A stretch of DNA of 64,000 nucleotides from Phycisphaerales bacterium (lineage in GTDB: Bacteria > Planctomycetota > Phycisphaerae > Sedimentisphaerales > Anaerobacaceae), in NCBI GenBank assembly GCA_003170415.1, contig PMZJ01000024.1, positions 41,935 to 105,934 on the forward strand, read 5' to 3'. The notes under the pieces are model-generated. The model had not been told where the DNA came from and made no database searches. It saw only the letters and a list, made by a program, of their open reading frames with translations. The translations under genes were made by a program, and so were the position numbers. Below, piece by piece: positions 39,669 to 59,141 of the stretch. The number at the start of each line of letters is the position of its first letter. Positions within the stretch are counted from its first letter, which is position 1.

Positions 39669-40088
39669 GAATATCGACACAGATTCCCCACCGGTTTACC
39701 TGAAAAATGACGCAATAATGCGTTTTATCAGAAAAACAAACCCCGCATTATCGGCCTGTCCTGAACAAACTTCCTCACCCACCTTACCCTCCCCGGAAAT
39801 CTGCTTGCATAGTCCCGCGATAAGGGACCCATTTCCCAATCCGCAATCCCACCTTAATCATGCGCCCAGTTTTTGGGGAGTACTATAAGGCCCCTTTCTT
39901 ACCAGTTCCAAAATAACAAAGTTTGCCTCTAATCTTCTTGCAAAAATGCCCTATTGGATGTAAAGTCAGAGAAAATTTGTCCAAACGAGAAATTAGAATT
40001 TCAAAAGTATGAATGTGTCATACGGTTGCAGTTTCAAAATAAAATGTGTTGCAGCTTGTTTCCTTAAGTTCTTTTAAAATAAGCATTT

Positions 40089-40177
40089 GGAGAGGTGACC
40101 GAGTGGCTGAAGGTAACGGTTTGCTAAACCGTCGTACGGGTAAAACCGTACCCCGGGTTCGAATCCCGGCCTCTCCG
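40089..40177 (+). tRNA. tRNA-Ser (anticodon GCT)
   Basis: The 89-base cloverleaf has acceptor arms GGAGAGG and CCTCTCC with discriminator G, an anticodon loop TTGCTAA (anticodon GCT), a long variable arm (GTACGGG...CCGTAC) as expected for serine, and a T loop GGGTTCGAATCCC. The 3' CCA is not encoded. The 3' part is duplicated at 61656-61715, so this gene is the integration site of a mobile element. Confidence 0.97.
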
Positions 40178-40180
40178 TTT
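40121..40180 (+). repeat. Left attachment site (attL)
   Basis: Identical to 61656-61715. It covers the tRNA-Ser anticodon loop to 3' end and restores an intact tRNA gene, as usual for tyrosine-integrase islands. Confidence 0.88.
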
Positions 40181-40719: not shown

Positions 40720-40745
40720 TTGCAACGATAGTTGCAATATGCGAC
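40720..40745 (+). promoter_or_regulatory. Dyad operator upstream of the sigma-54 activator gene
   Basis: TTGCAAC-GATA-GTTGCAA is a perfect palindrome (40720-40737), overlapped by GTTGCA-ATA-TGCGAC (40731-40745). The second dyad differs by one base from the site at 42218-42232. The position, 23 bases before the start codon, suggests autoregulation by the activator. Confidence 0.6.
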
Positions 40746-40768
40746 TGTTCAGTGTATATTAGAGAAAT

Positions 40769-42088
40769 ATGGAAAAAGAAGCGCAAACTGTCATCCTGGA
40801 CTCAATAACAGAGGGTGTGTTTACAGTTGACCTGAACTGGGAGATTACTTTTTTCAATCAGGCCGCCGAAAAAATTACCAAGATTCCCAGACAACAGGCA
40901 ATTGGACAATTGTGTAAGAACATTCTGAGGTCTGAACTATGTGAAAAGGACTGTGCACTTCAAAAAACGATAGAAACAGGCAAGCCCATCATAAACAAGC
41001 CGGTTCATATTGTTGACGCCAAAGGCAATCGAAAAGCTATTTCCATCACAACGGCTATTCTTAAAGATAAGCGAAGCAAAATAATCGGTGGAGTGGAAAC
41101 CTTTCGGGATATGAGTCTGGTCGAGCAGCTTCGCAAAGAAATCCAGCAGGGATACTCTTTTGAAGACATCATCAGCCGAAACCATCAGGTGCAGAAACTT
41201 TTTTCCATCCTTCCCAATGTGGCCCAGAGTAATGCCACGGTGCTTATTACCGGAGAAACCGGGACTGGCAAGGAGCTTTTTGCCAGAGCAGTCCACAACA
41301 TAGGTCCTCGAAAGAACAGGCCCTTTATTGCGGTTAACTGTGGTGCGCTTCCTGATACGTTACTTGAGTCGGAATTATTCGGCTATAAGGCCGGCGCTTT
41401 CACCGATGCGAAGAAAGACAAAGCGGGCCGGTTCGCGTTGGCCGAGGGCGGCACAATATTTCTGGATGAGATAACAGATATACCAATATCGGTGCAGGTC
41501 AAGTTGCTGCGTGTTCTTCAGGAAAAAACATACGAGCCGCTGGGAGGCACATTCTCTTGCAAGGCCGATGTGCGAGTAATTGCAGCAACAAACAAGGACA
41601 TTGAAAAACTGGTAACACAGGATAAATTCCGCCGGGACCTGTATTATCGAATCAACATTGTCAAACTTGCCTTGCCCGCTCTCCGGGAACGAAGAGAAGA
41701 TATCCCTTTGCTGATAGACCATTTTATCAGCCGCTTTAATCGCCTCCACAATAAAAACATCACCGGCGTGACAGATGAGGTATTGGCTATCCTTCTGGAA
41801 TATGAATATCCCGGCAATATCCGTGAACTCGAAAATATCATCGAACACTGCTTTGTGCTCTGCCAGGCCGAGATAATACAAAGGGAATGCCTGCCGGCAA
41901 TGTTTCAGAAGAAACAAATAGATGAATCTATTGGCTTGAATAAGGCGGTAACTCTCGAAGAGATGGAGAGGATATTCATAAAACAGGCGTTGCGGCAAAA
42001 CAACGACAATCGAACTGCGGCTGCAAGGCAGCTCGGCATAAACAAAAGCACTCTCTTTCGCAAGATGAAAGGATTTGACATCAAATAA
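40769..42088 (+). CDS. PAS-domain sigma-54-dependent transcriptional activator
   Basis: An enhancer-binding protein that uses ATP to open sigma-54 promoters. The N-terminal PAS domain (about residues 5-125) contains a cysteine set CX8CX3C (LCKNILRSELCEKDC) that could sense redox state or bind a cofactor. The AAA+ domain has Walker A GETGTGKE, the sigma-54 contact loop GAFTDA in place of the more common GAFTGA, Walker B GGTIFLDEI and the arginine finger region RRDLYYRIN. A Fis-type helix-turn-helix ends the protein (NRTAAARQLGINKSTLFRKM). It is the first cargo gene and probably controls the downstream NifX/Mrp cluster, like the activator of the Desulfovibrio ORP cluster. Confidence 0.93.
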   Translation: MEKEAQTVILDSITEGVFTVDLNWEITFFNQAAEKITKIPRQQAIGQLCKNILRSELCEKDCALQKTIETGKPIINKPVHIVDAKGNRKAISITTAILKDKRSKIIGGVETFRDMSLVEQLRKEIQQGYSFEDIISRNHQVQKLFSILPNVAQSNATVLITGETGTGKELFARAVHNIGPRKNRPFIAVNCGALPDTLLESELFGYKAGAFTDAKKDKAGRFALAEGGTIFLDEITDIPISVQVKLLRVLQEKTYEPLGGTFSCKADVRVIAATNKDIEKLVTQDKFRRDLYYRINIVKLALPALRERREDIPLLIDHFISRFNRLHNKNITGVTDEVLAILLEYEYPGNIRELENIIEHCFVLCQAEIIQRECLPAMFQKKQIDESIGLNKAVTLEEMERIFIKQALRQNNDNRTAAARQLGINKSTLFRKMKGFDIK

Positions 42089-42192
42089 GATAAACTAGCT
42101 TTGTCCAGTAACCGGTTCGAAAAGAAAAGACTGTGAATAAGCCGCCCAGGGCGGGTCATATCTTGACATCATTACAGCAAAATCGTGGCAAT

Positions 42193-42232
42193 TTGCAATT
42201 GTCGCGATGCAGCAAGTGTTGCAATATGCAAC
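42193..42232 (+). promoter_or_regulatory. Upstream activator sites for the ORP-like operon
   Basis: The perfect dyad GTTGCA-ATA-TGCAAC (42218-42232) and further half-sites (TTGCAAT at 42193-42199, GTCGC at 42201) lie about 105 bases upstream of a sigma-54 promoter. The same motif precedes the activator gene, so these are likely its binding sites. Confidence 0.65.
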
Positions 42233-42334
42233 TATAAGCATTTCTTCTTTGCAAATAGTAAGCCCCTCCCATTTCTTCTAATTACTTGCAAAATAAAGAC
42301 TTACCAAAGTGTATTTCTTTTCCACAAACCTTCC

Positions 42335-42350
42335 TGGTACAGAAGTTGCA
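42335..42350 (+). promoter_or_regulatory. Sigma-54 promoter
   Basis: TGGTACAGAAGTTGCA matches the -24/-12 consensus TGGCACGN4TTGCA, with GG (42336-42337) and GC (42348-42349) separated by exactly ten bases. Transcription would start near 42361, 13 bases before the NifX-like gene start. Confidence 0.7.
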
Positions 42351-42373
42351 AATATTGATTATTGAGACCGTTT

Positions 42374-42769
42374 ATGAAGATAGCAATACCAGTTTGGCAG
42401 GACAGTATTTCGGGCGTATTCGATTTCGCCGACAAGTTGTCATTGGCGGAGATTGAAGGGCAGACAGAAAACAATCGTCTCGAAATACCACTGCCCAATG
42501 AACCAATGCCTCAAAAAGCCAGTCGGCTAAAAGAGCTTGATGTTGATGTGCTCATTTGCGGTGCGATTTCAAAATCCCTCGCTTTTTTGATTATTGGCTC
42601 AGGTATAAAAATTATTCCTTTTGTAAGCGGGCAGATTGATGAAGTACTAAGCGCTTACGCAAGCGGCCAGTTGACAGAGATGCGGTTTCTAATGCCGGGA
42701 TGCCGCATAGGTACAAGGAAAGGTTTTGTTAAAGGCGGCCATCGTTGCAGATGGCATGGCGGCCTATAA
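42374..42769 (+). CDS. NifX/NifB-type (dinitrogenase iron-molybdenum cofactor family) protein
   Basis: A small ribonuclease-H-like-fold protein of the family that holds metal-sulfur cofactors (NifX, NafY, orange protein ORP). The N-terminus MKIAIPVWQDSISGVFDFAD and the internal DVDVLICGAISKSLA match the family. The 131-residue product has a basic, histidine- and cysteine-bearing tail (GCRIGTRKGF...GHRCRWHGG). No nitrogenase genes are near, so a role in nitrogen fixation is not implied. It is the first gene after the sigma-54 promoter. Start ATG 42374 rather than TTG 42362 fits the fold. Confidence 0.88.
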   Translation: MKIAIPVWQDSISGVFDFADKLSLAEIEGQTENNRLEIPLPNEPMPQKASRLKELDVDVLICGAISKSLAFLIIGSGIKIIPFVSGQIDEVLSAYASGQLTEMRFLMPGCRIGTRKGFVKGGHRCRWHGGL

Positions 42770-42867
42770 CGGTAGCGTATCAAGAATAAGTTGCCGGGTT
42801 ATGCAAATGTGTGACTGACGGGGACGGAGTCTAGTTCAAAGCAATATTGAATATTTAGGGGCAAAAA

Positions 42868-43230
42868 ATGAAGATAGCAGTAACTTCACAAGGTAACGAG
42901 CTTTCAAGTTTGGTTGACCCGAGATTCGGCAGAGCGAAATGGATTATTCTTTACGATACTGATAGTGGTCAGCATGAAGCTCACGACAACGTATTAAATC
43001 TCAATGCCGCACAAGGGGCTGGTATTCAGACCGCGAAGAATATCGCTAACATGGGAGCTGAAGCGGTAATTACAGCCAATGTCGGGCCGAACGCATGCAA
43101 GACACTTAATGCCGCGGGTGTAAAAATATTTATTGCCGGACAGCAGGCGGTTCAGGACGCGATTGATTCATTCAAGGGGGGAACATTAAAAGAAGTAAGC
43201 CAGGCAAGTGTTGAAGGTCACTGGGCATAG
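42868..43230 (+). CDS. Orange-protein/NifX-like protein
   Basis: A second cofactor-binding protein of the same family. The N-terminus MKIAVTSQG...VDPRFGRAKWIILYD and the later AQGAGIQTAKNIANMGAEAVIT resemble the Desulfovibrio orange protein (ORP), which binds a molybdenum-copper sulfide cluster. The 120-residue length matches. Whether this copy binds Mo/Cu, Fe-S or another metal cluster cannot be told. It lies in the activator-NifX-ORP-DUF5320-Mrp order typical of ORP-type clusters. Confidence 0.9.
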   Translation: MKIAVTSQGNELSSLVDPRFGRAKWIILYDTDSGQHEAHDNVLNLNAAQGAGIQTAKNIANMGAEAVITANVGPNACKTLNAAGVKIFIAGQQAVQDAIDSFKGGTLKEVSQASVEGHWA

Positions 43231-43407
43231 ATTTAAACCGGGCGGGAAATCGGACAGCCCTGCAATCGGATAAGTTGTCCGAAATGTGGGACAAAAATGA
43301 CAAGGGAATAACATTTTTTGAAATGATGTCGTCACCCTTTTGAAGAATTGGCTGTTTTGAAACCAAAGAGAAGCAGCAAATAATATTTTTTTGAAAGGAG
43401 ATTTACT

Positions 43408-43770
43408 ATGCCAGGTGGAGATAGAACAGGCCCTGTTGGAATGGGACCAATGACAGGCAGGGTCACGGGTTTTTGCGCGGGTTATCCGGCACCAGGTTAT
43501 ATGAATCCTGTTAGCGGACGCGGCTTTTTGGGTTGCGGCAGGGGCTTTGGTGGCCGAGGCGGCGGTCGCGGCCGGAGAAATAGGTTTTTTGCAACGGGGC
43601 TGCCCGGCTGGGCAAGAGCCGGCTTCGATTATCCGGCCGGTTTCGCAAGCGTTGCGCCTACCGCAGAACGGCAGCGTGAAGCACTAAAACAGCAAGCTCA
43701 GTATTTACAGAATTCCCTTGACGCGATTAACAAACACATCGGCGAACTGGAGAAGGAAAAGTCAGAGTAA
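43408..43770 (+). CDS. DUF5320-domain protein
   Basis: The N-terminus MPGGDRTGPVGMGPMTGRVTG is the DUF5320 signature. A Gly/Arg-rich centre (GGRGGGRGRR) and a C-terminal coiled coil (REALKQQAQYLQNSLDAINKHIGELEKE) follow. The family is regularly found beside NifX and Mrp genes in anaerobes; function is unknown. AAAGGAG lies seven bases before the ATG. The 177-base gap before it holds no clear second sigma-54 promoter. Confidence 0.88.
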   Translation: MPGGDRTGPVGMGPMTGRVTGFCAGYPAPGYMNPVSGRGFLGCGRGFGGRGGGRGRRNRFFATGLPGWARAGFDYPAGFASVAPTAERQREALKQQAQYLQNSLDAINKHIGELEKEKSE

Positions 43771-43844
43771 TTAAAACATGTCTGAGCAAGAGAACGTAAT
43801 ATTTACTTTGAGCGTCACTTAATTTTGTTTGGAAAGGTTTATGC

Positions 43845-45542
43845 GTGGCTAAAAGGATTGTTATTGTAGGTGGTGTAGCAGGCGGGGCCTCGGCGGCGGC
43901 AAGATTACGACGTCTTGATGAAAGTGCAGAGATAATACTGTTTGAAAGAGGAAAATACATCTCATTTGCCAATTGCGGCCTGCCTTATTACATAGGCCAA
44001 GTCATCAAAAAGCGGGATGACTTGCTCGTTCAAACCCCAGAGAGATTTAAGGCAAGATTTAACATCGATGTCAGAGTCGGCAGTGAAGTGATAGAAATTG
44101 ACCGCAAACGTAAAGAGGTCAAGGTTAAGGACCTTTCCGCCGACGCCATCTATATTGAGAAGTATGACAAGTTGATACTGTCTCCCGGAGCAGAACCGGC
44201 AAAACCGCCTATACCGGGGATAAATTCGCCACGCATATTCACCCTGCGAAACATACCCGACGCAGATACCATCGACGATTTCATAACAAAGCAGCAACCT
44301 AAACGGGCTGTAGTTGTTGGCGGCGGATATATCGGGCTCGAGATGGCCGAAAATTTTCGCAAGCGAGGGATGCTGGTAGCCATTGTGGAAATGCTCGACC
44401 AAGTAATGCCCACGCTGGATAAAGAGATGGCCAATCTTCTGCATGAGCATCTGCACAATCAGAACATTGCACTTTGGCTAAGTGACGCAGTGACGGGTTT
44501 TCGTGAAAGTGATTCAAAATTGTTTGCTACTTTGAAATCAGGAATGGAGCTTGCCTGCGATATGGCAGTGTTGGCAATTGGGGTAAGGCCGGAGACCACA
44601 CTGGCGAAAAAAGCAGACATGGAAATCGGCAGCACAGGAGGAATAAAGGTTAACGAAAATCTACAGACATCCGACCCGGATATTTACGCCATTGGTGACG
44701 CAATTGAAGTTCAACACTCTGTGCTAAAAAGGCCCGCTCTGATACCTCTGGCAGGTCCTGCAAACAGGCAAGGAAGGATTGTAGCCGACAATATATGCGG
44801 CAGAAATGTTAAATACAAAGGCACCCAAGGGACAGCAATACTTAAGGTTTTTGAGCTGACAGTTGCTATGACTGGCGCAACAGAAAAGGAGTTGAAAAAA
44901 GCAGGTGTAGTTTACGAAAAAGTATATTTACATCCTGCCAACCATGTTGGCTATTACCCCGGCGCTCAACAGATGCATATAAAAGTCATTTTTAACAGGC
45001 CTGAAGGCAGAGTGCTCGGCGTTCAAATTGTCGGCAAGGATGGGGTTGATAAGAGAATAGATATATTTGCTGTTGCCATTGGTACAGGTATGACCGTTTT
45101 TGATTTACAGGAACTCGAACTTGCTTACGCACCTCCGTACGGCAGCGGCAAAGACCCGGTAAACATGGCCGGTTACGCAGCAGCCAACATACTGGATGGC
45201 ACCGCAACTATAGAGCATTTTGAAGAATTAGAAAAAAGCTCATTAATAGTTGATGTCCGCACAGATTCGGAATTTTCGGGCGGGAATGTGCCAGGAGCAA
45301 TACATATACCGGTTGACCAAATGCGAGACAGATGGAATGAATTACCCAAAGATAAAACCATCAACTTATATTGCTCCGTAGGTATTAGAAGTTATATCGC
45401 CTCAAGATTTTTAAGGCAAAAAGGCATTGATGCCAAAAGCATATCGGGCGGTTACTCAACTTATGTGGCAAGAACCAGTGAAAAACTTCTTGAGGGACGG
45501 ACCGCCCAGCAGCTTAGGGATGAATTCTGCACAGGACTTTAA
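43845..45542 (+). CDS. CoA-disulfide reductase-like flavoprotein with rhodanese domain
   Basis: A pyridine nucleotide-disulfide oxidoreductase. FAD-binding IVGGVAGGASAAARLRR opens the protein, and the single redox-active cysteine is in YISFANCGLPYYIG. NAD(P)H-binding VVVGGGYIGLEMA and IYAIGDAIEV follow. Residues about 460-560 form a rhodanese domain with the active-site loop YCSVGIRSY. Such fusions reduce CoA-disulfide, CoA-persulfides or polysulfide. The GTG start has GGAAAGG seven bases upstream. Placement in an ORP-type cluster points to sulfur or persulfide handling for cluster assembly, by inference. Confidence 0.92.
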   Translation: MAKRIVIVGGVAGGASAAARLRRLDESAEIILFERGKYISFANCGLPYYIGQVIKKRDDLLVQTPERFKARFNIDVRVGSEVIEIDRKRKEVKVKDLSADAIYIEKYDKLILSPGAEPAKPPIPGINSPRIFTLRNIPDADTIDDFITKQQPKRAVVVGGGYIGLEMAENFRKRGMLVAIVEMLDQVMPTLDKEMANLLHEHLHNQNIALWLSDAVTGFRESDSKLFATLKSGMELACDMAVLAIGVRPETTLAKKADMEIGSTGGIKVNENLQTSDPDIYAIGDAIEVQHSVLKRPALIPLAGPANRQGRIVADNICGRNVKYKGTQGTAILKVFELTVAMTGATEKELKKAGVVYEKVYLHPANHVGYYPGAQQMHIKVIFNRPEGRVLGVQIVGKDGVDKRIDIFAVAIGTGMTVFDLQELELAYAPPYGSGKDPVNMAGYAAANILDGTATIEHFEELEKSSLIVDVRTDSEFSGGNVPGAIHIPVDQMRDRWNELPKDKTINLYCSVGIRSYIASRFLRQKGIDAKSISGGYSTYVARTSEKLLEGRTAQQLRDEFCTGL

Positions 45543-45590
45543 CGGTAAAATCTGGAAGATGAATGTGAACTGATGACATAGAACGGATAT

Positions 45591-46205
45591 ATGATGGATA
45601 ACGAAATACTGGAAAATCACAAAAGGTATCTTGAAAGAAAAAAGCGTTATAAAGGTTTTGGCTACGACATAGATAAGGAAAGGTATTTTATATTAGAAAA
45701 GGCAAAGCCTCTCTACGGGAAAATTCTGGAAGCCGGAACCGGTAAAGGGTATTTTTCGCTTACCTTGGCAAAACAGGGATATTCGTTTGTTTCCTTTGAT
45801 ATTTCACAGGAGGAGCTGCATTTCGCAAAACTTAATTTGGCTTATTATGGCGTTGATAAAAACGTATGCGTTAAGGTTGAAAATGCAGAACACACGAGTT
45901 TTGCAGACGCCAGTTTCGATGTCATAGTTGCAGTCAATACTCTCCATCATCTGCGCAATCCTTACCAGGTAATAGACGAATTAACCCGGCTGCTTTCTCA
46001 AAAAGGCAAACTCATCTTGAGTGATTTCACAGAAAAGGGTTTCAAAATTATGGATAAAATCCACAACACCGAAGGCAAAACGCATGAAGTAAGCAAAACG
46101 ACACTTTTAGACATCGAATCATATCTTGTTAAAAAAGGGTTCTCAATTAGAAAGGAAGAGAGCGCGTGTCAAAGTATCCTTATAGCTGAAAAGGAAATCG
46201 TATAA
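45591..46205 (+). CDS. Class I SAM-dependent methyltransferase
   Basis: A 204-residue Rossmann-fold methyltransferase. Motif I is ILEAGTGKGYFSLTLA, the acidic residue after strand 2 is in FDISQEELHFA, and AVNTLHHLRNP is the region after strand 4. No substrate-specific motif is visible. It lies between the flavoprotein and peptide deformylase genes of the cargo with short gaps. Confidence 0.88.
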   Translation: MMDNEILENHKRYLERKKRYKGFGYDIDKERYFILEKAKPLYGKILEAGTGKGYFSLTLAKQGYSFVSFDISQEELHFAKLNLAYYGVDKNVCVKVENAEHTSFADASFDVIVAVNTLHHLRNPYQVIDELTRLLSQKGKLILSDFTEKGFKIMDKIHNTEGKTHEVSKTTLLDIESYLVKKGFSIRKEESACQSILIAEKEIV

Positions 46206-46210
46206 GGCCT

Positions 46211-46717
46211 ATGAGAATGGTGATTTCAGGCCGGAAAAGCGATATAGACAAAACAATCAGGAACCCTTTGCATTTGGAAATATATCCGGGTAGTCAAGTG
46301 CTGCGTCAAGTGGCACACCCTGTGGAGGTATTTGATAGCGACATATTGTTACTTGCGAGCCAAATGTTAGATTTCATGCGAAAGAACGGCGGTATTGGTC
46401 TGGCGGCGCCGCAAATCGGGCTTTCACGCCGCATTATAGTAGTCGGATTTACCAACCAGAGTGTTTGTGTTGTTAATCCGCAGATAACTTTGGCTCCTGA
46501 TTGTGACTGGATGAAGGAAGGATGTCTTAGTTTGCCGGGAAAGATTATGAATATCAAACGGCATAAAAATGTCGAAGTGCAGAGATTTGACATTACAGGC
46601 AAGTCCTTAAGCTTTACCGCATCGGATCTTTTGGCAAGGGTTTTCCAGCATGAGATAGACCATCTCAACGGGAAGCTGATATGCGATTATGTGCCCCAAA
46701 GCGAGGAGGTAGTATAA
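46211..46717 (+). CDS. def: Peptide deformylase
   Basis: It removes the formyl group from new polypeptide N-termini. All three motifs are present: GIGLAAPQIG, EGCLSLPG with the metal-binding cysteine, and QHEIDHLNG with the two histidines and catalytic Glu. The 168-residue length is normal, with about 22 extra N-terminal residues. As an island-borne enzyme it is probably an additional copy; a chromosomal one would be expected elsewhere. Its stop overlaps the next start (TAATG). Confidence 0.95.
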   Translation: MRMVISGRKSDIDKTIRNPLHLEIYPGSQVLRQVAHPVEVFDSDILLLASQMLDFMRKNGGIGLAAPQIGLSRRIIVVGFTNQSVCVVNPQITLAPDCDWMKEGCLSLPGKIMNIKRHKNVEVQRFDITGKSLSFTASDLLARVFQHEIDHLNGKLICDYVPQSEEVV

Positions 46718-47034
46718 TGTCTCGAAATACGGCGAATTTTATTTTGGATTTGGTGTCGTTTTTGAATTTGCTGGGGCTTGTTTTTACCGGTTACATAATG
46801 AAATATGTATTGCCGCCCGGCACTGGCGGCACGGGTAGCATTCTCAACGGTGGGTCTGGACGAGGAATACGCGTAAAAGAATTATGGTCGATGACACGTC
46901 ACGAATGGGGTGACATTCATTTTTATTTAGCGATAGTATTTATTGCTCTGATGATAATCCATATCATCCTGCACTGGAAGTGGATTAATTATTATGTGAA
47001 ATCGGTCTTTAATGAACAGCCGTCCAGTAATTAA
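46717..47034 (+). CDS. DUF4405-type membrane protein, cytochrome b-like
   Basis: The 105-residue protein has two membrane helices (about 8-28 and 68-92) with histidines in HEWGDIHFYLA and MIIHIILHWKW. These could bind heme as in DUF4405/cytochrome b561-like proteins. A Gly-rich loop connects the helices. ATG 46717 overlaps the deformylase stop and has GAGGTAG upstream. A role as a membrane electron-transfer partner of the Fe-S ATPases is conceivable but unproven. Confidence 0.8.
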   Translation: MSRNTANFILDLVSFLNLLGLVFTGYIMKYVLPPGTGGTGSILNGGSGRGIRVKELWSMTRHEWGDIHFYLAIVFIALMIIHIILHWKWINYYVKSVFNEQPSSN

Positions 47035-47070
47035 GTGGTTCGATGAAATAGATAGGATATACGAAGGTCT

Positions 47071-47922
47071 ATGATTATTTCAGTTGCAAGCGGCAAAGGC
47101 GGGACAGGCAAGACCACTATATCAACAAATCTTGCTCTCTCTCTTGCAAGAACCGGACAACAGGTTCAATACATTGACTGCGACGTTGAAGAGCCCAATG
47201 GCCATATTTTCCTGAAACCTGTTATAGACAGCACTGAGGATGTTACTGTCGGTGTGCCTGAAGTCGATTTGGAAAAGTGTACCGGCTGCGGGAAATGCGG
47301 CCAGCTTTGCCAGTATAGTGCAATCCTCAGTGTGAAAGATTCCGTTCTTGTTTTTGAGCAGTTATGCCATTCCTGCGGCGGATGTATGGCAATCTGTCCG
47401 GCAAATGCCATCGTGGAGAAACAGCGGAAGATTGGAATCGCTGAATTCGGCAGCTCAAATGGAATAGCTTTTGGTCAAGGCAAGCTGGACATCGGGGCAA
47501 TACAAAGTCCGGCGGTGATACGGTATGTTAAAAGAAAAATCAAAAACAACAGCATAGTTGTGCTTGATGCGCCCCCCGGCACGTCGTGCCCCGTCATAGA
47601 AGCCGTCAAAGGAAGTGATTTTGTCCTGCTTGTTACAGAACCAACTCCATTTGGCCTCAATGACCTTGAACTGGCGATTGGGGTGGTAAGAGAACTGAAG
47701 CTGCCATTTGCTGTGGCAATAAACAGAAGCGACATCGGCGATGATGCAGTAGTGCGGTACTGTCAGCAGGAAAATATTGAAGTGCTTATTCAAATACCAA
47801 ATGACAGAAAAATTGCCGAAAGCTATTCACGAGGTGTGATGATAGTAGAAGCCATGCCTGATTATAAACAGAAGTTTTTGAAATTATATGAAGATATAAA
47901 AAAGCTGGGAAAAGGTAAATGA
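47071..47922 (+). CDS. MinD/Mrp-like ATPase with inserted 2[4Fe-4S] ferredoxin domain, first copy
   Basis: A deviant-Walker P-loop ATPase ([11 protein letters not shown], then [13 protein letters not shown]). A ferredoxin domain sits at residues about 65-115 with two motifs [12 protein letters not shown] and [11 protein letters not shown]. This is the architecture of the Desulfovibrio ORP-cluster MinD-like ATPases. It ends in an ATGA overlap with the J-domain gene. A similar protein is encoded at 48351; the two may form a heterodimer acting in metal-cluster assembly or cell-division positioning, as proposed for Desulfovibrio. Confidence 0.93.
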
Positions 47923-48317
47923 AACACGATCCTGATTTCATGGAGAAAATAACCAGGGACATAGAAGCACGCAAAGCTGCCGGCAGAATTCTTAATGTTA
48001 GTGAATCGGCAGATGTGAATGAGTTAAAGAAAGCTTATAGAAAAGCCGCCACTAAATATCATCCGGACCACAATAGCAATACCCTTGAAGCAAATAAGAG
48101 ATTCGTCCTTATTAAATGTGCTTATGAGCTGTTAGCTTTTGATAAACCATGTGAGAAAATACTGGAAGAAATTAACTCATGGCCAGATGTGCCGGAGGAT
48201 GGCAAATATAGACTTGAGAACCCCTGGGGGCATTTTTTGTGGTGGAGAGAGAAGTTTTTCGAATCAGACGAGAAAAATGAAAAAAGAAAGAGCGGTAAAG
48301 CGGGTTCTTGTGTTTAG
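47919..48317 (+). CDS. J-domain (DnaJ-like) protein
   Basis: The 132-residue product has a J domain at about residues 18-70 ([29 protein letters not shown]) with the HPD motif intact. No zinc-binding or substrate-binding DnaJ domains follow; the C-terminus is aromatic then basic. J-domain proteins stimulate Hsp70, as HscB does in Fe-S transfer. Its position between two Fe-S ATPase genes, overlapping the first, suggests a dedicated co-chaperone for cluster assembly or delivery. That role is inference. Confidence 0.88.
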
Positions 48318-48350
48318 CAAACGTCAGGAACGCAAAGGAAATTTGGTGTT

Positions 48351-49241
48351 ATGAAGGAATTAGTCGTAATAAGCGGTAAAGGCGGGACGGGTAAAACCAG
48401 CATTGCGGCAGCATTTGCATCATTGGCGCAAAAAGCCGTGGTTGCGGATTGCGACGTGGATGCCGCTGACCTTCATCTGGTCCTGTCGCCGACTATAAGG
48501 CAGCAGTCCGATTTTTCAGGCGGCAAAAAGGCATCTATTAATACCGACAAATGCGTTGGTTGCGGCAAGTGTGCCGCCTTGTGCAGATTTGAAGCTATAC
48601 ATCTTAATGGTCAGGCAAATGACATTGTAAAAAAGACTTACACTGTGAATCCCTTTTCCTGTGAGGGCTGTAAGGTATGCGTGGAGTTCTGTCCTGTAAA
48701 CGCGATTTCATTCGAGCCAGCCATCAATGGGAAATGGTTTATCTCCGATACTCGTTTCGGGCCTATGGTCCACGCTAAACTGGGAATCGCAGAAGAAAAC
48801 AGCGGCAAGCTGGTTACCCTGATAAGGCAAAAGGCCAAAGAAATTGCTGCAGAGCAGAAACTCGATTATCTCATTGTTGATGGTTCGCCGGGTATCGGCT
48901 GTCCGGTTATCGCTTCCATAACAGGTGCAGATTTAGTGCTGGTAGTGACCGAACCAACGTTATCGGGCAAACACGACTTAGAAAGAGTGGCCGAGCTTAC
49001 AAAAAATTTCGGAATCAAAACAATGGTTTGTATCAACAAATATGACATCAATCCGCAAATGAGTGACCTTATAAGCGAAGATGCAGGAAAAAGAGGTCTA
49101 AAAGTGATTGGGACCATACCTTATAATGAGGTTTTTACGAAGGCCCAGATAATGAAGGCGACGGTGATTGAATACACCAGCGGCGATATAGCGGAAAAAG
49201 TAAAAGCATTGTGGAGAGAGGTCGTTTATGCTCTCGGCTGA
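48351..49241 (+). CDS. MinD/Mrp-like ATPase with inserted 2[4Fe-4S] ferredoxin domain, second copy
   Basis: Same architecture as the gene at 47071: [11 protein letters not shown], then ferredoxin motifs CVGCGKCAALCR and CEGCKVCVEFC at residues about 62-120, and DGSPGIGCPVIASI. The sequence differs clearly from the first copy, so they are distinct partners, not a recent duplication. Together they match the DVU2103/DVU2104-type pair of ORP clusters. The Walker A carries the second Lys (signature Lys) typical of MinD. Confidence 0.93.
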   Translation: MKELVVISGKGGTGKTSIAAAFASLAQKAVVADCDVDAADLHLVLSPTIRQQSDFSGGKKASINTDKCVGCGKCAALCRFEAIHLNGQANDIVKKTYTVNPFSCEGCKVCVEFCPVNAISFEPAINGKWFISDTRFGPMVHAKLGIAEENSGKLVTLIRQKAKEIAAEQKLDYLIVDGSPGIGCPVIASITGADLVLVVTEPTLSGKHDLERVAELTKNFGIKTMVCINKYDINPQMSDLISEDAGKRGLKVIGTIPYNEVFTKAQIMKATVIEYTSGDIAEKVKALWREVVYALG

Positions 49242-49316
49242 CGTTAAGCGCACTTTGGAACAAAGACAAGTATCACAATTGTATACCTGCGATTAGCACT
49301 TTAAAGGAAATTCAAT

Positions 49317-50540
49317 ATGGAAAAGCAGCCATTGGAAACAGAACAGGATTTTAAAAAACAGATGGAAATCGAACAGCAGCAGATTCGTCTGCGAATGGGC
49401 CGTATCAAGCATAAAATACTTGTGCTTTCAGGCAAAGGTGGTGTTGGAAAAAGCACAGTTGCGGTTAACCTCGCAGCTTCGCTGGCGATTAATAACAAAA
49501 AGGTTGGCCTTCTAGATATAGATATCCACGGGCCAAGCATACCTAAGATTCTTAATCTCGAAGATAAGAAGCTTGTCGCTTTCGACGATACCATAATGCC
49601 CGTGCCGGTTTCAGCTAATCTGGCTGTTATGTCAATCGGATTTATGCTGAAGGATCAAGACGACCCCGTTATATGGCGAGGCCCGATGAAATATCAGGTG
49701 ATAAAACAATTCCTCAGGGATGTCGAATGGTCCAATCTGGATTATCTGATAGTGGATTCTCCTCCCGGCACCGGCGATGAGCCGCTTTCGATTGCCCAGC
49801 TTATTGAAAAACCGGACGGCGCAATCATTGTTACAACTCCTCAGCAGCTTGCAATTACAGACGTCAGAAAAGCAGTATCGTTCTGTCGGCAGCTTGATAT
49901 ACCGGTTATCGGCGTGATTGAGAATATGAGCGGCTTTGTCTGTCCCCAATGCGGGCACAATACGGATATATTCAAATCTGGCGGTGGCGAAGATATGGCA
50001 ATCGAGATGAATGTTCCGTTCCTGGGGAGAATTCCAATCGACCCGCAGATAGTAAGCGCCTGTGATTCAGGAGAACCATACATTCAGCGATACAGCCAGA
50101 GCCAGGCCGCCAAAGCTTTCAATGAAGCAATTAAGCCCATCTTGGCGCTTGATAAAAGTGTATTTGAAAAAACCAATTCATTTCAGAAAGGAGACCATAA
50201 AATGCGAGTAGCTATTCCAGTAAATGACGGCAAGTTGTGCCAGCATTTCGGCCATTGTGAAACCTTTGCGGTCATTGACACGGAGGGTGACGCGACTAAG
50301 CCATTTAAACGGCAGGATGTTACGCCGCCGCCGCATGAACCGGGTGTATTGCCAAAATGGCTTCACGAGATGGGGGTGAACGTCATTATCGCCGGCGGTA
50401 TGGGACAGCGTGCCAAGCAGCTATTTGACCAGAATCAGATTGAAGTGGTCATAGGTGCTCCCGTTGATACGCCTGAGAATCTTGTCTCGGCTTATCTCAA
50501 CAAGACCCTCCAAACTGGCGATAACACCTGCGACCATTAA
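49317..50540 (+). CDS. Mrp/NBP35-type Fe-S carrier ATPase fused to a NifX/ORP-like domain
   Basis: Residues 25-285 form an Mrp ATPase (LSGKGGVGKSTVAVNLA, DSPPGTGDEPLS, and the bridging CPQC pair in GFVCPQCGHN). Residues 296-407 form a third NifX-like domain (MRVAIPVNDGKLCQHFGHCETFAVID). Mrp proteins bind and transfer 4Fe-4S clusters; the C-terminal domain may hold the cluster acceptor. The NifX domain begins at an in-frame ATG preceded by AAAGGAG at eight bases spacing, so a separate 112-residue product is possible. In Desulfovibrio the matching ATPase (DVU2109) works with ORP. Confidence 0.93.
   Translation: MEKQPLETEQDFKKQMEIEQQQIRLRMGRIKHKILVLSGKGGVGKSTVAVNLAASLAINNKKVGLLDIDIHGPSIPKILNLEDKKLVAFDDTIMPVPVSANLAVMSIGFMLKDQDDPVIWRGPMKYQVIKQFLRDVEWSNLDYLIVDSPPGTGDEPLSIAQLIEKPDGAIIVTTPQQLAITDVRKAVSFCRQLDIPVIGVIENMSGFVCPQCGHNTDIFKSGGGEDMAIEMNVPFLGRIPIDPQIVSACDSGEPYIQRYSQSQAAKAFNEAIKPILALDKSVFEKTNSFQKGDHKMRVAIPVNDGKLCQHFGHCETFAVIDTEGDATKPFKRQDVTPPPHEPGVLPKWLHEMGVNVIIAGGMGQRAKQLFDQNQIEVVIGAPVDTPENLVSAYLNKTLQTGDNTCDH
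50187..50204 (+). promoter_or_regulatory. Internal ribosome binding site and start codon in the Mrp-NifX gene
   Basis: AAAGGAG (50187-50193) followed after eight bases by an in-frame ATG (50202) marks exactly the domain border. It would yield the free NifX-like domain (50202-50540). Confidence 0.6.
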
Positions 50541-50618: not shown

Positions 50619-51074
50619 ATGATAATTGATGCGAACCAGAAGAGACTTGAAAATATATGCAATCGCGTCCATGACAAATGCGTTGTGTGCGGCTCGTCAA
50701 ATCCGAGTGGGTTACACTTAAAGTTTGAAATAGCCGACGACGGAAGCATCAGAGCAAGGTTTCGATGCGATGCAAGTTTTGAAGGGTATTCCGGTTCGCT
50801 GCACGGGGGCGTGATAATGTCCGTCTTTGACGGAGCAATGGGACACTGTATTTTTGCCCGTGGACAGACGGCGGTAACCGTTGAGATGACGACCAGATTT
50901 CGTCATCCTGTCCTGACGGGACAAGAAGCGACAGTGTCAGCCCATATCACGAGGTCTTCACCTCCCTTGTACCTGTTGGAGGCGGAAATCATACAGGAAG
51001 GCGTCGTCAAAGCAACGGCTGAAGGCAAATTCTACAACCAGCCGAAACTTGCCGACGAGATGGAGCAGGGTTAA
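50619..51074 (+). CDS. PaaI-family hotdog thioesterase
   Basis: A 151-residue hotdog-fold protein. The N-terminal CVVCGSSNPSGLHLKF and the active-site region SGSLHGGVIMSVFDGAMGHC are typical of PaaI-type acyl-CoA thioesterases, with TTRFRHPVLTG as the later strand. Substrate is unknown. The stop overlaps the start of the MBL-fold gene (TAATG), so the two are coupled. Confidence 0.88.
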   Translation: MIIDANQKRLENICNRVHDKCVVCGSSNPSGLHLKFEIADDGSIRARFRCDASFEGYSGSLHGGVIMSVFDGAMGHCIFARGQTAVTVEMTTRFRHPVLTGQEATVSAHITRSSPPLYLLEAEIIQEGVVKATAEGKFYNQPKLADEMEQG

Positions 51075-51904
51075 TGGGTTGTGACATTCGTATAACAGTT
51101 CTAATTGACAATAAAACATCAAGACCTGACTTGAATGCAGAACATGGTTTGTCACTATGGATTGAATACAGAGAAAAACGAATTCTCTTTGATGCCGGCC
51201 AGAGCGACACCCTGATTAGAAATGCAGAAAAACTGGGTATCAATTTAGCTCAGACAGATGCAATCGTCCTGAGTCACGGCCATTATGACCACACCGGAGG
51301 CCTTAAAGCCGTTCTCGATTTTGCCCCCAAAGCGAAGATTTATTTGCACCCTGCGGCAATCGAAACAAATTTCAGTCGCAAAACCACAGGGATAAAATCG
51401 ATTGGCATTTCTGATTCTGCAAAAAAAGCCATTCAAGGCCGTAATGTCATCTGGACAGTAACGCCTGCCTGGTTATTCCCCGGAATGGCAGTGACCGGAC
51501 AAGTGCCGCGTATAAATAACTTTGAAGATGTCGGAGGAGCTTTTTTTATCGATGAAAAATGCCAAAAAGCCGATGAATTGTTGGATGATCAGGCATTGTT
51601 TATCGAATCGGCAAGGGGATTGATTGTCGTTCTTGGCTGTGCCCACGCGGGAGTGGTCAATATTCTGAATTATGTGGCAGAGTTAACAAGTCAATCTCAT
51701 GTCTTCGCCATTATAGGCGGGACACATCTTCTGAGTGCCTCATCAGAGAGAATAGAACATACAATTAAAGCGATCAAAGGATACAATGTGCAACAGGTCT
51801 GCTTGGCTCATTGCACCGGCAGTGAAGCTGTAGCGAAATTCCGTGACATCTTCAAAGGACGGTGTGTTGAATGTGCTGTGGGAAAACATTTTGAATTTTA
51901 TTAA
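51074..51904 (+). CDS. MBL-fold metallohydrolase
   Basis: A metallo-beta-lactamase-fold protein with the metal motif SHGHYDHTGG near residue 68 and later metal histidines in GCAHAGVVN and LAHCTGSE. The 276-residue form with N-terminal ITVLIDNKTS and AEHGLSLWIE matches the group often annotated as 7,8-dihydropterin-6-methyl-4-(ribofuranosyl)aminobenzene-phosphate synthase in methanogens. That substrate assignment is doubtful for a bacterial island gene. Confidence 0.88.
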   Translation: MGCDIRITVLIDNKTSRPDLNAEHGLSLWIEYREKRILFDAGQSDTLIRNAEKLGINLAQTDAIVLSHGHYDHTGGLKAVLDFAPKAKIYLHPAAIETNFSRKTTGIKSIGISDSAKKAIQGRNVIWTVTPAWLFPGMAVTGQVPRINNFEDVGGAFFIDEKCQKADELLDDQALFIESARGLIVVLGCAHAGVVNILNYVAELTSQSHVFAIIGGTHLLSASSERIEHTIKAIKGYNVQQVCLAHCTGSEAVAKFRDIFKGRCVECAVGKHFEFY

Positions 51905-52048
51905 AATGACTGAATAAATGAAAACCAGCGGATTTGCTTTTGTATGTAGGGCATGTCCTTGAGCAAAAGAGAAATCAACATATATTTGATAATTTCAAAA
52001 GGCGTTCAAACAAGTCCTATACTGAATTAAGTGAGGATAAAAAGGGCT

Positions 52049-52528
52049 ATGAAAGAAATTATAATGCGACCTATAGGCATTATTCGTTCACCGTACAAAC
52101 AAACGCGAGACATGCCAATTCAGGGCGTTTTCAAGCCGGAAGTCAAGGCACACATCGAACTGAAAGCCAAATATGCCCCCGGTCTTAAGGACCTGGAGAG
52201 CTTCAGCCATGCAATTGTGATCTATTACTTTCACAAATCCCAAAAAGAAGAGGTTGTTTGCCGACCATTTCTGGAAGATAAAGAACATGGCATATTTGCC
52301 ATAAGAAGTCCTCATCGGCCAAATCATATCGGCCTGTCTGTGGTTAGAATTGAAAGCATAAAAAATAACAAATTATACTTCAATGAAGTTGACGTTTTAG
52401 ATGGCACACCTGTATTGGACATAAAGCCATATATTAAACATTTTGACGTCCGAGATAAAATTGTTTCAGGCTGGATAGATAAGCACTTCCGGAATACTGA
52501 CAAGCCTGATAGAACTATTTTGAAGTAA
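52049..52528 (+). CDS. trmO: TrmO/TsaA-family tRNA methyltransferase
   Basis: The TsaA (YaeB, VirR) beta-barrel family includes TrmO, which methylates t6A37 of tRNA using SAM. Signatures are MRPIGIIRSPYKQ near the start, FSHAIVIYYFHKS, and FAIRSPHRPNHIGLSVV. In anaerobes and archaea, stand-alone TsaA genes often sit with metal or redox genes, so a role other than tRNA modification is possible. ATG 52049 is preferred to GTG 52031; a further ATG at 52064 also opens the conserved region. Confidence 0.88.
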   Translation: MKEIIMRPIGIIRSPYKQTRDMPIQGVFKPEVKAHIELKAKYAPGLKDLESFSHAIVIYYFHKSQKEEVVCRPFLEDKEHGIFAIRSPHRPNHIGLSVVRIESIKNNKLYFNEVDVLDGTPVLDIKPYIKHFDVRDKIVSGWIDKHFRNTDKPDRTILK

Positions 52529-52560: not shown

Positions 52561-52935
52561 ATGGCGCAATTACCAGACGCAGTTAAGAAAGCGATAGCTA
52601 AACAGGATGCCTTTCCCGTGGCAACATGCAATCAGGATTGCATTCCAAATGTCGTGTACATCGGGTATTTGAAGGTTATCGATGACCAAACGGTTCTTAT
52701 CGCAGACAACTACCTTAAAAAAACCCGTGACAATATTTTGAGTAACGGCAAGATAGCTTTTGTTGTGCGTGATGAGGAAAAAGGCTCTTTTCAGATAAAA
52801 GGCACTGCCGAAAGGTTAACAAAAGGAGCTATGTTTGATGAAGTCCAAAAATGGGCATCCGAAAAATTACCGAGAGTTGCTGCTGTCGTAATGCATGTAG
52901 AGGAAATATACAACGGAGCAGAAATTATTCACTGA
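52561..52935 (+). CDS. PNPOx-like FMN-binding split-barrel protein
   Basis: A 124-residue split-barrel flavoprotein of the pyridoxamine 5'-phosphate oxidase-like superfamily. The pattern AFPVATCNQDCIPNVVYIGYLKVIDD and the DNYLKKTRDNILSNGKIAFVV helix-strand unit are typical. It probably binds FMN and acts as a small reductase; the substrate is not deducible. AAAGGAG lies upstream of the ATG. Confidence 0.87.
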   Translation: MAQLPDAVKKAIAKQDAFPVATCNQDCIPNVVYIGYLKVIDDQTVLIADNYLKKTRDNILSNGKIAFVVRDEEKGSFQIKGTAERLTKGAMFDEVQKWASEKLPRVAAVVMHVEEIYNGAEIIH

Positions 52936-53044: not shown

Positions 53045-53596
53045 ATGGAAAATCTTGTTCCAACAAAGGTTTTCTTGACAAAGGGTGTGGGCAGGCACAA
53101 ATACCAATTAAAGTCATTTGAAGAGGCATTAAGGCAGGCGGGAGTTGCACAGCAGAATCTTGTTCAGGTTTCATCGATACTGCCGCCGCGGTGCAAAATC
53201 ATCAGTCGTGACAGCGGTTTAAAGAGATTTATGCCGGGGCAGGTATCTTACTGCGTAATGGCGCGTTCGGATACAAATGAACATGGACGTTTGATTGCTT
53301 CTTCAATAGGTATCGCTGTTCCCAAAGACCGCAACAACTGGGGATACATCAGCGAAGTCCACGGCCAGGGAATGAACGAAAAAGAAGCCGGTGACATGTC
53401 AGAGGATTTGGCCGCCGATATGCTCGGTACAACTCTTGGACTTGAAGTTGACCCTGATAAAGCGTGGTCTGAAAAAGAACAGGTATATAAAGCAAGCGGC
53501 CTGATTATCAGAACCTCCAATATTACGCAGGCAGCCAGAGGTCAAAAGGGGCTCTGGACAACAACTGTTGCTATCGTAATGTTTTTGTTTGACTGA
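53045..53596 (+). CDS. Pyruvoyl-dependent arginine decarboxylase
   Basis: It converts arginine to agmatine, the first step of a polyamine route, using a covalent pyruvoyl group made by self-cleavage before a serine. LVQVSSILPPRC holds the cleavage Ser-Ser. HGRLIASSIGIAVPKDRNNWGYISEVHG and the GLWTTTVA end match the family of archaeal and chlamydial enzymes. The 183-residue length is typical. No agmatinase or agmatine deiminase gene is nearby, so the fate of agmatine is unclear. Confidence 0.92.
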   Translation: MENLVPTKVFLTKGVGRHKYQLKSFEEALRQAGVAQQNLVQVSSILPPRCKIISRDSGLKRFMPGQVSYCVMARSDTNEHGRLIASSIGIAVPKDRNNWGYISEVHGQGMNEKEAGDMSEDLAADMLGTTLGLEVDPDKAWSEKEQVYKASGLIIRTSNITQAARGQKGLWTTTVAIVMFLFD

Positions 53597-53650: not shown

Positions 53651-54028
53651 ATGGGAAACTTGCTGGACCGGATAAGCGGGAAATCGGAAGTCAAATTTGA
53701 GGAATACGAAGGAACCGATGCGGTTGTGCATACGGTTGAGAAACACCCGGATAGAACTTTTAAGGTTACTTGGCCGGGGAAGATAATTACCGGGGTCCCG
53801 GCTGATGAAGTTATTCGGTTCATACGGGAAGAGTTGCCCGGCTATTATGATTATTACATAAAGATAAAAACCTATGTGGACAGGCACAATATCCCTCAGG
53901 CAGAAATAGAAATCCAGGGGACAATTGGTATAAGAGGAAAGCCCGGCAGGTATAATCCGTTTGATACAAGGTTTTTCATCAAAACCGAAGGAAAACAAAA
54001 ACAGTTAACGGATAAATCTGAATTCTGA
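53651..54028 (+). CDS. Uncharacterised cargo protein
   Basis: I do not recognise this 125-residue protein. It is charged and probably soluble, with no signal peptide, membrane segment or cysteine. A Tyr-rich segment (LPGYYDYYIKIKTYVDRHN) lies in the middle. It lies between the arginine decarboxylase and the radical SAM gene in one direction, with gaps of 54 and 25 bases, so it should be expressed with them. Confidence 0.7.
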   Translation: MGNLLDRISGKSEVKFEEYEGTDAVVHTVEKHPDRTFKVTWPGKIITGVPADEVIRFIREELPGYYDYYIKIKTYVDRHNIPQAEIEIQGTIGIRGKPGRYNPFDTRFFIKTEGKQKQLTDKSEF

Positions 54029-54053: not shown

Positions 54054-54989
54054 ATGACCCCGAAAGATGTCGGCAGAAATAACTGTATATTCGGCCCGGT
54101 TCCATCCAGAAGATTAGGCCGTTCACTTGGGATTGATTTGGTGCCGTTTAAGACGTGCACGTATGATTGCATTTATTGTCAACTCGGAAGAACAACGAAC
54201 AAAACAACACAAAGGAAGGAGTGGGTGCCAACCGACAACGTTATCAACCAGCTCTCAGGCAAACTTGGCTCTAACCCCGATTATATAACTCTGTCTGGCT
54301 CGGGCGAACCCACATTGTTCTCACGCATTGAGGAGCTGATTTCCAGAATAAAAAGTGTTACCGATATTCCAGTAGCCGTGCTTACAAACGGGTCGCTGTT
54401 GTGGTTGCCGCAGGTCAGAAAGGCCCTCAAAGCCGCCGATTTGGTCATCCCTTCACTCGACGCAGGAAATGACCGTATGTTTCAGTATGTCAATAGACCT
54501 CATCCGGATATTTCGTTCACAAAGATGCTGGAGGGGTTAATTAAGTTTCGCGAGGAATATGACGGCCAATACTGGCTTGAAGTATTTCCGTTGGCAGGCA
54601 TAACCACCACTGAAATGGAAGTTGACGAGCTAAAGACCTGTATAAACTCCATAAGACCAGACAAAGTGCAGACAAATACTGTAAGCCGGCCGCCCGCTGA
54701 AAGCTTTGCCGAGCCGGTCCCCCGGAAACAGTTGGAGACCATAACCAGGAAGCTGTACGACAAAGCAGAGGTTATTGCTGACTACCGAGGGGTGCATAAA
54801 GCAGAATATTTCTCGGCTAAGTGTGATGATGTATTGACGCTTCTGGAGCGTCGCCCCTGTTCTGTTGAGGATATCGCATCAGGCCTTGGTCTTCATAGAA
54901 ATGAGGTTGTAAAGTACTTAGAACAATTAAGCACCGAAGGCAAAATCATAGCAAAGCCGTTTAAAAACAAACTATACTATTGCAAATAA
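54054..54989 (+). CDS. Radical SAM protein with C-terminal winged helix
   Basis: The N-terminal radical SAM domain has the cluster motif CTYDCIYCQ (CX3CX2C) near residue 35 and the GSGEPTL motif. The N-terminus FGPVPSRRLGRSLGIDLVP is typical of the COG0731-like/YfkB-like group. The last 70 residues (LLERRPCSVEDIASGLGLHRNEVVKYLEQL) are a winged helix-turn-helix, unusual for an enzyme and suggesting DNA binding or regulation. Substrate unknown. It is the last intact cargo gene. Confidence 0.9.
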   Translation: MTPKDVGRNNCIFGPVPSRRLGRSLGIDLVPFKTCTYDCIYCQLGRTTNKTTQRKEWVPTDNVINQLSGKLGSNPDYITLSGSGEPTLFSRIEELISRIKSVTDIPVAVLTNGSLLWLPQVRKALKAADLVIPSLDAGNDRMFQYVNRPHPDISFTKMLEGLIKFREEYDGQYWLEVFPLAGITTTEMEVDELKTCINSIRPDKVQTNTVSRPPAESFAEPVPRKQLETITRKLYDKAEVIADYRGVHKAEYFSAKCDDVLTLLERRPCSVEDIASGLGLHRNEVVKYLEQLSTEGKIIAKPFKNKLYYCK

Positions 54990-58876: not shown

Positions 58877-59141
58877 TATTGCTCTCCTTTAATTTAGCTG
58901 TTATGGATTGGACTATCGCTTTTGTGTCGATGGTTTTAACGCGAAATTGCTCAACCCATTTCGTTACCTCGGCCCAGTGGAAAATCAACTTGCCTACGAC
59001 CTTGTAGGCTGGCAGTGGATTGTTGGGTTGCTTGATGAGGATCCGCAAAGTCCTGACCGAAAGGCTCATTCGTGCGGACAATTCCTTTATGTCGATGTAG
59101 CCTCCGTCAAGACAATGCGGTGTGTTTTCTTTTGCTTTCAT
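58848..59141 (-). CDS. Excisionase-like helix-turn-helix protein, first copy
   Basis: A 97-residue MerR/Xis-type DNA-binding protein: YIDIKELSARMSLSVRTLRILIKQPNNPLPAYKVVGKLIFHWAEVTKWV is the helix-turn-helix with wing used by excisionases. The C-terminus is basic. ATG 59141 has AAAGGG six bases upstream; a GTG at 59171 would overlap the preceding gene. It lies directly before the primase gene and may act in excision or in control of replication. Confidence 0.82.
   Translation of the reverse strand: MKAKENTPHCLDGGYIDIKELSARMSLSVRTLRILIKQPNNPLPAYKVVGKLIFHWAEVTKWVEQFRVKTIDTKAIVQSITAKLKESNNAKKTKSKS

Follow-up and report, generated by a model that had tools for sequence, protein, structure and literature searches.

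What does an orange-protein (ORP) type gene set do in a planctomycete, and how did it come to lie beside a tRNA gene? We addressed this question in a 64,000-nucleotide stretch of contig PMZJ01000024.1 from the Phycisphaerales bacterium assembly GCA_003170415.1 (hereafter the window, to whose positions coordinates refer unless a locus is named), in which a preliminary description made from the letters alone had placed a mobile, self-regulated ORP-type metal-cluster system at 40720-50540. The earlier observation is confirmed, and the real extent is larger than first noted: inserted at tRNA-Ser(GCT), the window carries an integrative element of 21.5 kb, with an extended ORP/MrpORP cluster as its cargo. 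The reading that we propose for this cargo, and which we regard as evenly poised between right and wrong, is that of a kit under sigma-54 control that would keep iron or molybdenum-copper in the form of an anionic metal sulfide and make [4Fe-4S] clusters from it.

A 19-gene ORP cluster as cargo of a tRNA-Ser element

The cluster comprises 19 genes on one strand (+) from 40769 to 54989, of which the ORP-type genes (40769-50540) form the first part. The 12 genes named in the preliminary description are all there, in the order given and on the + strand, except that flavoprotein and rhodanese, both present, belong to one gene (43845-45542). Its boundary at 50540 was too short: seven more genes of the same direction (4HBT to radical SAM in the list below) reach 54989, with intergenic gaps of -1 to 126 bp downstream of MrpORP, and each of the seven was found again in at least one sister cluster. 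The genes are:

40769..42088, + strand: sigma-54 activator (PAS-AAA-HTH8) with GAFTDA motif and PAS-domain cysteines C49/C58/C62 (family matches)
42374..42769, + strand: NifX-like protein with cationic C-terminal tail, NifXa (PF02579, 30.7 bits against a cut-off of 26.3)
42868..43230, + strand: NifX/ORP-like protein, NifXb (PF02579-type match, 72.1 bits)
43408..43770, + strand: DUF5320 protein, rich in Gly, Arg and aromatic residues
43845..45542, + strand: CoA-disulfide/persulfide reductase-rhodanese fusion
45594..46205, + strand: S-adenosylmethionine (SAM) methyltransferase
46211..46717, + strand: peptide deformylase, with what we take to be the three motifs of this enzyme
46714..47034, + strand: DUF4405 membrane protein
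47071..47922, + strand: MinD1, MinD-type ATPase with two 4Fe-4S motifs
47919..48317, + strand: J-protein with conserved C-terminal tail
48351..49241, + strand: MinD2, MinD-type ATPase with two 4Fe-4S motifs
49317..50540, + strand: MrpORP, an Mrp-NifX fusion (NCBIfam MrpORP)
50619..51074, + strand: 4HBT thioesterase
51074..51904, + strand: metallo-beta-lactamase-fold (MBL) hydrolase
52031..52528, + strand: TrmO-like methyltransferase
52561..52935, + strand: PNPOx-like flavoprotein
53045..53596, + strand: pyruvoyl-dependent arginine decarboxylase family protein (PvlArgDC)
53651..54028, + strand: unknown 125-residue protein that recurs in sister clusters
54054..54989, + strand: radical SAM protein, the end of the cargo

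The element itself is delimited and equipped by the following features:

40088..40178, + strand: tRNA-Ser(gct), the integration target at the element's left end (ARAGORN; Rfam, 57 bits)
40118..40180, + strand: left attachment site attL, perfect 63-bp repeat
55437..56612, - strand: tyrosine integrase, with homologues beside tRNA-Ser(gct)
57332..58876, - strand: D5-type replication ATPase
58848..59141, - strand: small excisionase-like protein of 97 residues, overlapping the start of the D5 gene (weak match)
59164..59397, - strand: small excisionase-like protein of 77 residues (weak match)
61653..61715, + strand: right attachment site attR, perfect 63-bp repeat, the element's right end

The tRNA island that had been suspected is thus real, with a tRNA-Ser(gct), a perfect 63-bp direct repeat, an integrase and a D5 ATPase. 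Around the perfect 63 bp, attL and attR align over 92 nt at 92% identity, and no inner att copy lies between the repeats, where the best match reaches 31 of 63 positions. The integrase frame is open and, as judged by eye, the R, HxxR, H and Y residues are present. At E 1e-70, 5 of the 148 genomes, this one among them, encode the integrase or a homologue; three of the four others lie approximately 0.3 kb from tRNA-Ser(gct), and from this gene position the specificity of the integrase would match that tRNA. One of these three has its own 39-bp repeat; in the stretches fetched for the other two, the last 22 nt of the tRNA occur once only. The fourth homologue, 57% identical, has a tRNA-Met about 6 kb away. 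The D5 protein is distributed sporadically, being encoded by 10 of the 89 genomes of the family, this one among them. The G+C content of the cargo is 42-46%, compared with 47-52% over most of the window's left part, where 12-18 kb is an exception at 37-45%.

Between cargo and integrase, 54990-55437 contains broken coding remnants that resemble the N-terminus of a transposase and the C-terminus of a YgjP-type metallopeptidase, and the cargo may have joined the element here.

Compared with other tRNA-targeted elements and satellites, this one shares the repeats at the tRNA 3' end, the tyrosine integrase, the small excisionase-like proteins and the D5 ATPase, but differs in its metal-sulfide/iron-sulfur (Fe-S) cargo, in the distance of the integrase from the tRNA, and in that no conjugation gene and only one weak packaging-family match were recognised. 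An open literature search returned, among the best-ranked titles and abstracts, no description of an ORP cluster as the cargo of an integrative element.

The ORP identity rests on several proteins. The Mrp-NifX fusion passes the NCBIfam MrpORP model with 558.9 bits (cut-off 450) and has the motifs HFGHC at residue 310 and a terminal CDH at 405; NifXa and NifXb match this profile weakly and in its C-terminal domain only, and MinD1 and MinD2, each with two 4Fe-4S motifs, are the counterparts of Orp3 and Orp4. The MrpORP cut-off, the two dicluster-ferredoxin MinD ATPases and the GAFTDA activator bear out the ORP-type system of the preliminary description, but the operons are not divergent: all 19 genes lie on the + strand, and the two divergent operons of the Desulfovibrio type were not found. 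The MrpORP fusion, the two dicluster MinD ATPases, a NifX-type partner, the GAFTDA sigma-54 activator and palindromic sites (predicted here) are shared with the D. vulgaris ORP complex (DVU2103-2109) plus MrpORP, whereas that system forms two divergent operons, compared with one co-directional 19-gene cluster on a tRNA element, to which the J-protein, DUF5320, reductase-rhodanese, MBL, TrmO, PvlArgDC and radical SAM genes are added. The system is therefore known in kind, and its mobile extended form, the J-protein and the fusion partners described below appear to be new.

Recurrence and probable lateral transfer of the cluster

Conservation was counted over 12 other places with a fused MrpORP above the cut-off (loci L051-L062, the frame in L058 being interrupted), and as several contigs are short, all recurrence counts are lower bounds. 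A MinD2 homologue lies in 12 of the 12, DUF5320 in at least 8, MinD1 (300 bits or more) in at least 7, NifXb in at least 7, MBL (200 bits or more) in at least 6, the J-protein (100 bits or more) in at least 5, 4HBT and radical SAM (400 bits or more for the latter) in at least 4 each, PvlArgDC, TrmO and the 125-residue protein in at least 3 each, and NifXa in at least 2. Single occurrences were seen for the deformylase, a close methyltransferase, PNPOx and an adjacent activator. This recurring gene set rules out a chance assembly. The extra genes singled out in the preliminary description are not all tied in to the same degree: the J-protein recurs as counted above, the full-length reductase and the deformylase in 1/12 each and DUF4405 in 0/12. 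J-protein and reductase, whose co-occurrence it had proposed as a check, stand together in two sister clusters (L058 and L063) of the 20 loci L051-L070; the full-length reductase is also present in two split-MrpORP clusters, L063 and L065. A second, shorter Pyr_redox flavoprotein recurs in sister clusters (L070:3035-4414, L058:4801-6204), where it replaces the rhodanese reductase or stands beside it.

The gene order extends further: activator-NifX-NifX-MBL-MinD-MinD-Mrp is found again in the spirochaete contigs L104 and L107, where Mrp and NifX are encoded by separate frames, and the shorter order activator-NifX-Mrp in the spirochaete L113 and in Pseudodesulfovibrio L112. A contig scan for Mrp gave at least 80 loci, mostly plain Mrp with the common Walker motif, and was not used for frequencies. 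The J-protein family, with an HPD J-domain and an invariant WGHFLWWR(E/D)KFF tail in the eight aligned members, is rare, with members in 7 of the 392 genomes searched from the phylum (E 1e-25), and in three of the six other genomes it lies within about 1.2 kb of MinD/MrpORP genes. The structure matches listed for its model (mean predicted local distance difference test, pLDDT, 82) are mainly J-domains, none of them at E 0.001.

Four genus members were compared, G000 (this genome) to G003, whose MutS identities to this genome are 91% for G001, 89% for G003 and 80% for G002. MrpORP above the cut-off and the activator at E 1e-100 are confined to G000 and G002, and the cluster is absent from the nearest relatives, G001 and G003. 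To the left of the tRNA, G001 is collinear with 34332-40179 of the window, with gaps including one of about 0.7 kb, and this collinearity stops at the tRNA 3' end, so that the site in G001 is one without this element, in a region that differs otherwise too. Past tRNA-Ser(gct), G001 shares an 11-kb stretch with G003 at 89% identity (L071 from 4936, L072 from 6510), and only at the end of the G001 contig do 194 bp match DNA that in this genome lies about 4.8 kb past attR, so the right flank is not resumed at once. By eye, the 11-kb stretch looks like a hydrogenase operon, and the site varies among congeners.

Between G000 and G002, synonymous divergence (dS) is 0.25-0.68 in 12 of 13 cluster genes, compared with 0.97-2.14 in five core genes, a small sample in which a sixth core gene was unmatched in the G002 loci examined. 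The comparison covers 13 of the 19 cluster genes, leaving out DUF5320, reductase, deformylase, DUF4405, PNPOx and 4HBT; no homologue of the last five was seen in the G002 stretch. The G002 copy adjoins an IS3-like transposase (by eye) and not a tRNA-Ser, and its activator lies on another contig. Because the cluster dS lies below that of the core genes, and because of the distribution among the relatives, lateral transfer of the cluster between bacteria is well supported by these sequence comparisons; together with the 63-bp repeat, this agrees with the mobility proposed in the preliminary description.

Plasmid carriage was rejected as a common route, as 6 of 72,556 plasmid records match MrpORP at E 1e-60 and one of these, an 809-kb replicon, covers at least 80%. 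Phage carriage as a common route was likewise rejected: of 73 viral-contig matches (1 of the 73 annotated), none extends beyond residue 291 of 407, and hence the NifX half is not spanned in any of them. At the sensitivity used, viral contigs yielded no relative of the integrase, and six relatives of the D5 protein in viral contigs were without ORP-cluster genes in the DNA examined.

Two further observations concern G002. Its locus L052 (G002:C60) also carries an ARMT1-like phosphatase and an OsmC-like protein (14376-15284 and 12252-12707), which have no match among the window's cluster genes, and L053 (G002:C49) is a second MrpORP cluster in this congener, with J-protein, MinD2, 4HBT and MBL.

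Predicted switch and metal-sulfide chemistry

How might such a cluster be switched on and what would it make? Three sites in the DNA bear on its control:

40731..40745, no strand: palindrome GTTGCAATATGCGAC, one mismatch, just upstream of the activator gene and likely its own binding site
42218..42232, no strand: palindrome GTTGCAATATGCAAC, a likely enhancer of the activator
42335..42350, + strand: predicted sigma-54 promoter TGGTACAGAAGTTGCA, score 11 of 12

The palindrome GTTGCAATATGCAAC sits 117 bp upstream of the promoter TGGTACAGAAGTTGCA, and RpoN is present in the genome. The element has 2 sigma-54 sites with a score of at least 10, where shuffles lead one to expect 1.4; by count this is not above chance, so the argument for the promoter is its place and recurrence. 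If one mismatch at most is allowed, the element has 2 palindromes of this form, compared with 0.03 in simple shuffles, a figure that is biased in the motif's favour because the motif was read off this sequence before counting. In relatives, the palindrome precedes NifXa with no mismatch in G033, one in G002 and two each in G051, L104 and L107; none was seen in L112, which has the promoter only, nor in L113 and L102, both without such a promoter on the coding strand. The activator carries GAFTDA, a motif that is listed for DVU2106 in PMC4641369, and its relative in the spirochaete L113 has GAFTGA. The PAS cysteines C49, C58 and C62 are present in all 17 sequences that cover the site, from 15 distinct genomes (two were entered twice). 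The palindrome just upstream of the activator gene favours the self-regulation named in the preliminary description, a claim whose support is confined to the sequence.

We propose the following order of events. The activator's PAS domain, with its three invariant cysteines, would sense metal or Fe-S status and fire the promoter at 42335, and the palindrome beside the activator's own start would probably make it autoregulatory. The NifX-fold proteins and the Gly/Arg-rich DUF5320 would then hold an anionic metal sulfide by charge, for which the CoA-disulfide reductase-rhodanese would likely make sulfide from persulfide. From this putative IssA/ORP-like store MrpORP would be fed and, perhaps with the J-protein, would pass [4Fe-4S] to both ferredoxin-MinD ATPases, the pair that would make up the working complex; this last step is drawn by homology to published MrpORP chemistry.

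Published work on homologues gives these steps their shape. ORP is reported to hold its cluster non-covalently. For IssA, a NifX-fold protein, it has been proposed that thioferrate is bound by the globular domain together with a tail rich in Gly, Arg and aromatic residues (PMC5524996). According to PMC6345978, MrpORP binds Fe-S clusters and transfers them in vitro to aconitase and apo-Orp3-Orp4-Orp8.

In the window, NifXa ends in a cationic tail of 25 residues and the Gly/Arg-rich DUF5320 is a separate gene; judged by their residues, both share the Gly/Arg/aromatic chemistry of the IssA tail. The alliance of a NifX-fold domain with a cationic Gly/Arg/aromatic region is common to the cluster and to the thioferrate storage of Pyrococcus furiosus IssA, but here, where genes alone were read, that region is divided between the short NifXa tail and the DUF5320 gene, the latter ferredoxin-fused in some sister clusters. 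Pfam scans of four long proteins from sister clusters (L052, L058, L070 and L076) show each to be a fusion of NifX (PF02579), DUF5320 and a dicluster ferredoxin; they are the only full-length matches in the 42 loci compared, several of which are incomplete or lie outside ORP clusters, and L303 has a further long match. NifXb and DUF5320 in the window are separate neighbouring genes. It is mainly because such fusions exist that we read DUF5320 as a probable part of a metal-sulfide scaffold.

As for the sulfur enzyme, the reductase matches the solved CoA-disulfide/persulfide reductases 3icr, 3nta and 8a56 at 540-615 bits over nearly its full length and differs from them in lying inside an ORP cluster. 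It keeps the NCGLP cysteine and the rhodanese-loop cysteine, both of which we take to be catalytic. As the preliminary description had stated, no nitrogenase component was found, and a role in making a nitrogenase cofactor was rejected, there being no PF00148 match in a genome that is 95% complete.

The ORP complex has been described and its function is putative in the literature cited here; a bounded, portable version with conserved partners narrows the question, with its working parts named by its own switch, a sulfur enzyme, a J-protein and natural NifX-DUF5320-ferredoxin fusions, and with two near relatives without the cluster as a natural plus/minus comparison. If the reading is true, a capacity for Fe-S assembly would be able to travel as cargo. 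That Fe-S biogenesis is mobile cargo in the way that metal resistance is, we consider quite unlikely.

Competing explanations

The two MinD-type ATPases suggest another account, in which the cluster encodes a cell-division or chromosome-positioning complex and the Fe-S and NifX parts do no more than mature or regulate its MinD-like ATPases. The Desulfovibrio complex has indeed been linked, putatively, to cell division or septum positioning, with MrpORP mainly at one pole (PMC6345978, PMC3897727, PMC4672049). However, PMC4672049 terms the division role a hypothesis to be confirmed, neither the activator nor an MrpORP above the cut-off is seen in two congeners, and genes for handling sulfur and metals figure prominently in the cluster; we find this account decidedly improbable. 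Improbable, too, is a copper/molybdenum antagonism module that would serve as portable metal tolerance, the NifX/ORP-type proteins locking copper into thiomolybdate in a sulfidic cell. Orp8 is homologous to proteins with a non-covalent S2MoS2CuS2MoS2 cluster (PMC6345978), and Dde_3197-3199 of O. alaskensis, whose tags are close to that of the MrpORP Dde3202 (cluster membership would follow from the tags), appear in top-ten tables of two of three copper-coupon comparisons beside feoA and flavodoxin (PMC10533852). Yet the sign of the change differs between comparisons, the same lists point to iron through feoA and flavodoxin, the main text of the copper study PMC8836040 does not contain these Dde tags, and none of the 19 genes was recognised as one for copper efflux.

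A different kind of doubt concerns the element, which might be an old chromosomal ORP cluster plus a dead satellite, long immobile, the cluster having moved otherwise, by IS3 or homologous recombination. The G002 copy, beside an IS3-like transposase and not at tRNA-Ser, with its activator on a separate contig, fits this, as do the coding debris that fills 54990-55437 and the integrase, which lies 15 kb from attL compared with about 0.3 kb from the tRNA in three homologues; on the other side, the 63-bp repeats on either side of the cargo are identical, no further copy lies between them, and the integrase has an open frame. We judge such a composite origin somewhat unlikely. The metal-sulfide kit on a mobile element, which we prefer, also has evidence to reckon with that speaks against it. 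The D5 frame has 518 residues, compared with 660-817 in its four closest homologues, and no conjugation family was found among the scanned proteins of 55437-60789, so the element is only putatively mobile at present. The single packaging-family match, to a terminase small subunit (E 4e-4), is weak and falls on a 77-residue HTH-type protein that matches excisionase about as well. In G002 the divergence of the J-gene greatly exceeds that of the genes around it (proportion of synonymous differences, pS, 0.78, saturated), which speaks against one clean block transfer, and G006 has activator, NifXa and DUF5320 with no MrpORP near the cut-off, against a strict unit. Within the cluster, the full-length reductase is rare among the fused MrpORP places, and in three of the six other genomes, these three belonging to one family, the J-family occurs without ORP genes within the 17 kb fetched. 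Among solved structures the D. gigas ORP (2wfb, 61 bits) is third for NifXb, which is nearer to 1rdu (83 bits) and 1eo1 (71 bits). Finally, the NifXa tail is short, 25 residues compared with 70 in IssA, and barely or not cationic in two of nine aligned NifXa-type proteins.

For the 125-residue protein, a model (pLDDT 79) gave no PDB match at E 0.001. Outside the element, the low-G+C stretch at 13600-17400 (0.37-0.45) is possibly a second island, and the gene run at 1644-6335 looks by eye like the oxygen-defence set of an anaerobe, its genes presumably encoding a flavin reductase, desulfoferrodoxin, a flavodiiron protein, peroxiredoxin, rubrerythrin and a Fur-family regulator.

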